Part shown: one piece after another, positions 38,907-39,616 of the stretch
Position numbering within the stretch: position 1 is the first letter of the stretch
How the letters are laid out: each line of letters starts with the position of its first letter
Source of the DNA: an uncultured Spirochaetales bacterium
GTDB lineage: Bacteria > Spirochaetota > Spirochaetia > Sphaerochaetales > Sphaerochaetaceae
Direction: 5' to 3'
Length of the DNA: 42,978 nucleotides
NCBI GenBank assembly: GCA_949297785.1
Contig: CASFTW010000017.1
Span: forward strand, 1-42,978
Program-made: the position numbers and the translations under genes
Notes under the pieces: model-generated
The model's input: the letters and a program-made list of their open reading frames with translations, nothing else
What the model was told of the DNA's origin: nothing
The model's database searches: none

Positions 38907-38933
38907 AAATTTTGTGCACCTTCCGATGCGAAA
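38859..38933 (+). repeat. 75-base direct repeat, copy 1
   Basis: Covers the last 48 bases of the phosphorylase gene and 27 bases beyond it. It matches 42800-42874 with three differences (C/T, G/A, A/T). The two copies enclose about 3.9 kb. Confidence 0.95.
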
Positions 38934-39454
38934 GATCAGAAAAAAGCGGTCGAATGATGAAGATTCTTCGTGGTGCTCATGGTTTCCGTTCGTAAGATTT
39001 GCTGTTTCTCTGTAAAACCTTACGGCATCGGCCTCTGATAGCGCTTTCTCGTCAGTGAAATCTCAAATATCTATCATGAAAGGTTAGTCCCCTTCTTCAA
39101 TGAATGCTTTGAACGTGTTTTCAAAGTGTCCAAAGAGAGCTACATCTCTTCTTCGTCCAGCGTGCCAAGCTTTTTATGTTCGTTTATGACATGTCCGCTC
39201 TTACTGAGGTCGATTGCCTCTATGAACGGATTACTGTCAGGGCTTGAATCGACTTCAGAGAACATCACGATTTCGTATGAGGAGAGGATGCATACCAGTA
39301 CAAAAGAGAGCATCCCTTTTCATGGCGCAACCTTCCTGAGTTGACTTCAGCCTTATGCTGATCTGCGTTTATTTTCTACTCTTATGCTCTCAATCGAATA
39401 TACCTGAATAAGTTCGTTTATTATAGGGAAAAATGCCTTAATCAGATGTCTTTC
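38898..39454 (-). pseudogene. minus-strand gene debris, several broken frames
   Basis: Three open stretches with protein-like composition lie in order on the minus strand. 39454-39353 includes FFPIINELIQVYSIESIRVE and ends at TAA. 39313-39140 includes EVDSSPDSNPFIEAIDL and ends at TAG, although deleting two bases in the GAAGAAGAG tract would continue it as EDVALFGHFENTFKAF. 39062-38898 includes EKALSEADAVRFYRETANLT and ends inside the repeat. I cannot name the family; the first stretch loosely resembles recombinase or transposase C-termini. Stops and frame changes indicate decay. Confidence 0.45.
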
Positions 39455-39616
39455 TCAGTTATCGAATGTTTGTATTTTTGCAGAAAACTATTGATTCTTA
39501 TCATGTGAATCTTGACATCGGGGGGGGGTAAATGTGGTAGAGCTATTTATTGGTAGCATATGGTAAATTCTTCGGAATCAGCTACTTAAATTGCTTTTAT
39601 AAGGAGAGGCTGAGAA
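38934..39616. other. gene-poor region of about 680 bases upstream of the lipoprotein gene
   Basis: Holds the minus-strand debris (to 39454) and then an AT-rich promoter region with TTGACA and a nine-G run. No intact gene on either strand. Confidence 0.6.
39512..39534 (+). promoter_or_regulatory. -35 box followed by a homopolymeric G9 tract
   Basis: TTGACA (39512-39517), TC, nine G (39520-39528), then TAAATG. With nine G the gap to TAAATG is only 11 bases; other AT-rich -10 candidates lie further down (TATTTA at 39544-39549). Slippage at the G run would change promoter spacing, as described for poly-G tracts of T. pallidum tpr promoters. Confidence 0.6.

Follow-up and report, generated by a model that had tools for sequence, protein, structure and literature searches.

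A putative phase-variable poly-G promoter before a spirochaete lipoprotein gene belongs to a promoter family recurring at lipoprotein genes

On the combined evidence, a run of nine G in an uncultured Spirochaetales genome quite likely serves as slippage tract in a phase-variable promoter that drives the downstream lipoprotein gene and that belongs to a family of such promoters in the same genome. For the family, this reading is well supported at the level of sequence: the architecture, the recurrence at lipoprotein genes, the constraints on the -10 box and on spacing, and the tract-length differences between paralogues can all be read directly from the genomes. That the copy studied here itself switches is what we infer. 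RNA polymerase needs a distance of about 16-19 bases between the -35 and -10 boxes. Under the proposed mechanism, with poly-G lying between them, G added or lost at replication would alter this distance and bring the promoter into or out of register, so that transcription would rise or fall cell by cell.

Results

The window is the whole stretch of DNA analysed, 42,978 nucleotides, and is contig 17 of a 2.22 Mb genome assembled in 50 contigs. An initial annotation had named a TTGACA box followed by two bases and nine G, about 90 bases before a lipoprotein gene with BspA/InlB repeats, as the only such homopolymer in the window. In all of this it was accurate: the motif is exact, 88 bases separate the tract from the GTG start codon, the product has a lipobox and both Pfam repeat types (LRR_5/BspA, 303 bits; Flg_new/InlB-type, 243 bits), and no second G or C run longer than six was found anywhere in the window (Table 1). 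Under a first-order Markov model, 0.06 runs of G9 or longer are expected in the window. The probability that TTGACA lies by chance no more than 12 bases before a particular tract is ~0.006, or ~0.0015 for no more than two bases.

Table 1. Features around the tract in the window, and promoters of the same design before lipoprotein genes elsewhere in the genome.
Feature	Position	Strand	Basis or remark
TTTGCA-16-TATCAT, possible upstream promoter	39477-39504	+	consensus scan
-35 box TTGACA	39512-39517	+	perfect consensus, read from sequence
TC, two bases separating TTGACA from the tract	39518-39519	+	sequence
G9 homopolymer, putative slippage tract	39520-39528	+	sequence
TAAATG, -10 candidate of the initial annotation	39529-39534	+	spacing 11 at G9; family-profile score -5.9, poor
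TAGAGC, alternative -10 candidate	39538-39543	+	spacing 20 at G9; score 0.6, weak
Ribosome binding site AAGGAGAGG	39601-39609	+	sequence
Lipoprotein gene, 1024 aa	39617-42691	+	GTG start; Flg_new/InlB B-type repeats, then BspA-type LRR_5
Lipobox FAS-C	Cys codon 39674-39676	+	sequence
TTGACA-N7-G9-TACTCT	C1:216183		before lipoprotein gene
TTGACA-N10-G9-TAGTTT	C9:3170		before lipoprotein gene
TTGACA-N8-G9-TACCTT	C20:28320		spacing 17; before lipoprotein gene
TTGACA-G9-ATGGTA-TAGAAT	C9:47831		spacing 15; before lipoprotein gene

The product, a lipoprotein (MRKIAVAFFALVALFVFASC), is predicted from lipobox and repeats to be a cell-envelope or surface protein. A search for this lipoprotein in GTDB contigs returned a single, distant match in Ruminococcaceae. 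Upstream of the gene lies a long intergenic region (38907-39616), on the minus strand of which a degenerate reading frame (MLSFVLVCILSSYEIVMFSEVDSS..., 39080-39325) is possibly the remnant of a gene.

Recurrence in the rest of the genome was assessed by pattern searches, from which the genome-wide tract counts come. There are 18 tracts of G8 or longer, and runs of G9 or longer number ten against ~3 expected (first-order Markov). TTGAC stands within 12 bases upstream of seven of the 18, where 1.7% would be expected for each (binomial P ~1e-8), and a lipoprotein gene follows five of these seven, the window included; the other four are given in Table 1. The same design is seen at C41:7966, where the contig ends without a lipoprotein ORF, and C27:6802 looks like a chance match. 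At the five other sites with a TANNNT -10 box, spacing at the assembled tract length is 15, 16, 17, 19 and 19.

The design also recurs in relatives. We used the pattern TTGAC-N0-12-G8-TA, with the reversed pattern and poly-C in place of poly-G as controls. It matched 31 times in 9 of the 16 genomes of the genus, and 259 times in 53 of the 139 genomes examined from the order, which comprise one family and 22 genera; the controls gave 0 (reversed) and 3 (poly-C). The matches are densest in a sister genus, where a single genome has as many as 13. Of 393 genomes sampled from the phylum, 89 have the pattern, mainly in another family of the class; this is the Treponema family, to which the genome of the window does not belong. 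Tracts there (G454 included) are longer, G10-G17, often with TATAAT directly after them, and mostly precede lipoprotein-like ORFs. The complete genomes G478 (L223-L230) and G454 (L231-L236) have TTGAC[AT]-N1-6-G10-17-TATAAT-like promoters, most of which lie upstream of small lipoprotein-like ORFs. In IMG/VR the promoter pattern occurred on 20 contigs, about the chance level by a rough estimate.

Since the poly-G plus TTGAC design recurs both in this genome and in relatives while the controls stay near zero, chance can be ruled out as its origin. The same evidence bears on the window run taken singly. That it is a chance homopolymer or an assembly error with no role would agree with the ~3 G9+ runs expected for a genome of such size and with the G8 tracts found in unrelated places (L012, L029), but the same -35 box recurs at lipoprotein genes, and we strongly disfavour this explanation.

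Four poly-G promoters lie within 5.2 kb at one locus (L188, G011:C24:8600-15600), and lipoprotein genes follow three or more of them. In G039, G042, G044, G045, G063 and G073 many poly-G promoters lie less than 150 bases from contig ends (e.g., L164, L183, L187), as would be seen if assembly failed where promoter-signal peptide modules are repeated; such modules could also recombine with each other. Flagellin was absent from all 16 genomes of the genus. Together with the single family in the order and the position of the Treponema family elsewhere in the class, this suggests a Sphaerochaetaceae-like, non-motile spirochaete.

The anatomy of the family was then read from 92 distinct promoters, in 76 of which TA follows the tract directly (first layout, class 1). 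The searches required only TTGAC, the tract and, mostly, TA, and all other features are free evidence. Among the 76, 73 have T as the sixth base of the -10 (background ~25%), giving a family -10 of TANNNT; 66 have a -35 box ending in A (TTGACA), which precedes the tract as it does in the window; and spacing is 15-19 in 73. The start codon typically lies 30-45 bases past the tract. By a simple rule, a lipoprotein-like ORF lies downstream of 77 of the 92 promoters. A second layout (L048, L058, L062, L067, L075, L087, L132, L135) has the tract adjoining the -35 box, mostly as TTGAC-G8, with TANNNT 6-9 bases past the tract and a spacing of 15-17.

Three relatives of the window lipoprotein have a poly-G promoter. 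One homologue from the genus, L087, shows the second layout and a good -10 box, TATACT; another homologue (L095) has the first layout with TACCAT, as does the paralogue on C1 of the same genome (L097) with TACTCT. The homologues L081 and L091 are without poly-G.

Several genomes give evidence of slippage. In G039, two promoters (L164/L166) with identical flanks of 50-odd bases have G9 and G8, respectively, and in G042 a pair (L171/L172) with flanks 96% identical and free of gaps has G10 and G9. Paralogous promoters with matching flanks and a differing number of G carry the signature of slippage. Furthermore, in Treponemataceae the length of the tract and that of the rest of the spacer compensate for each other (r = -0.65), the total staying near 16-19 with a variance of 3.7 vs 10.3 when shuffled (P 0.0001, a rough value because some of the loci are paralogues). 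This compensation was not significant in the window's own genus (P 0.28) or in the sister genus (P 0.15). No other tract length was found within the species, as a DNA search of the genus, with one assembly per species, found the window's upstream region in its own genome only; an IMG/VR probe for that region returned nothing.

The copy in the window stands apart from the other members: its spacing is 11 or 20, neither -10 candidate has T at the sixth position, and its leader measures 88 bases where 30-45 are usual. Both candidates match three of six consensus positions. TAAATG, which the initial annotation had taken for the -10 box, ends in G and scores far below the family median of 7.6, and the family profile does not support it as a normal -10. 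TAGAGC is preceded by TGG, resembling an extended -10, and its offset of 9 bases from the tract is that of the second layout (L048, L062, L075, L132, L135). A spacing of 15-19 would take G13-G17 for TAAATG or G4-G8 for TAGAGC. Because G9 is out of register for either candidate, the promoter as assembled is probably off or weak. If TAAATG serves as -10, a longer tract, about G14-G16, could be the ON state, which fits treponeme promoters in which 1-4 bases precede G12-G17; if TAGAGC does, a shorter tract, about G5-G8, could be, which fits the second layout of the own genus.

These departures from the family are the substance of the main rival, a locked-off member whose phase-variable ancestor lost its -10 box and correct spacing, leaving the gene silent or transcribed from another site. 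In its favour, TAAATG and TAGAGC both depart from the family -10, tracts of a length near G9 bring no TANNNT to a spacing of 15-19, and the intergenic region is long. However, the 1024-codon ORF is intact, the -35 box is perfect and G9 has been kept, although an unused site should lose its tract; on balance we regard decay as unlikely.

A further alternative places the promoter upstream, with the tract within the first 20 transcribed bases, its length tuning promoter escape or leader structure. A consensus scan did pick up TTTGCA-16-TATCAT there, and in Treponema pallidum the tprL tract is not between the boxes either (PMC7864442). Against this, the scan found 2 such sites vs 1.5 expected in shuffles, in relatives the position of the tract is consistently between -35 and -10, and TTGACA would seldom fall so close to a tract by chance; we consider this alternative improbable. 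Between the tract and GTG, the consensus scan found no complete promoter; the best hexamer, TAGCAT at 39554, has no -35 box at 15-19 and was rejected.

The preferred reading, a phase-variable promoter as the initial annotation proposed, is thus well supported for the family, given four other lipoprotein genes in the same genome, hundreds of loci in relatives and differences in G number, whereas the window copy is atypical of it.

Other homopolymers were noted elsewhere in the genome. An HmaA-HmaB-HmaC anti-phage system (L038:4514-12601; PADLOC 1446, 1030 and 601 bits) has an in-frame C9 in the HmaB methylase gene just before the DPFAGGG motif (L038:8362-8370, C7:84761-84769), possibly a translational phase switch of the defence system. 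A G9 lies inside a lipoprotein gene ~30 codons past the lipobox (L036:4031-4039, C4:97430); the signal-peptide frame stops soon after it and a long ORF goes on in another frame, so translational switching by poly-G may occur in this genome as well. A small lipoprotein gene (L040:4247-4897, C9:48582) has an in-frame G8 shortly past the lipobox and is located one gene upstream of the C9:47831 poly-G promoter, on the same strand. At two gene junctions (L032:4157-4164, L035:4061-4068) a G8 has the next ATG within ~10 bases and could double as a ribosome binding site.

Discussion

The closest known counterpart is T. pallidum tp0126, an OmpW homologue with poly-G between -35 and -10, as shown by experiment, and best transcribed at a spacing of 17 (PMC7864442). 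Like the promoters described here, it is a poly-G spacer promoter of a spirochaete surface protein gene. It differs in driving a single outer membrane protein gene, and its host is an obligate pathogen from a different family, whereas here there are several lipoprotein genes with repeat domains per genome, and in that the window spacing at G9 is out of register. The tprE/G/J/L genes are similar in having variable poly-G near promoters of surface protein genes. At tprL, 7-11 Gs occur in vivo and reporter output depends on the length, the tract overlapping the -10 region and leaving the -35/-10 spacing unchanged, and at tprE/G/J a CRP homologue takes part (PMC7864442). Outside the spirochaetes, Neisseria meningitidis porA has a poly-G spacer between -35 and -10, the shortening of which abolishes transcription, according to the passages of PMC7864442 that cite it. 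This is, in contrast, one porin gene in an unrelated phylum. In the vlp system of Mycoplasma hyorhinis, each gene of a variable lipoprotein family has a homopolymer spacer promoter, but the homopolymer is poly-A, the genes are clustered and the host lacks a cell wall.

The mechanism is therefore known; that it extends across a spirochaete family other than that of Treponema is something we did not find described in the literature searched. Homopolymers in treponemes were counted in PMC8049484, the portion of which considered here does not describe poly-G spacer promoters. No literature linking Sphaerochaeta with phase variation was found, the coverage being partial and such absence weak evidence.

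Our findings make it likely that non-motile, probably host-associated spirochaetes outside the Treponema family, together with many Treponema species, use poly-G spacer promoters genome-wide to switch several to more than 10 surface lipoproteins per genome independently of each other. If true, this would amount to combinatorial surface variation through one shared mechanism. The list of loci is ready for tract-length counts in existing metagenome reads. Studies of poly-G promoter switching in spirochaetes have dealt with a few T. pallidum genes, and breadth, more than mechanism, is the point of interest here: the presence of the same promoter design in another family and in several species of Treponema, chiefly at lipoprotein genes, suggests a general strategy of surface variation in spirochaetes that reaches beyond syphilis.
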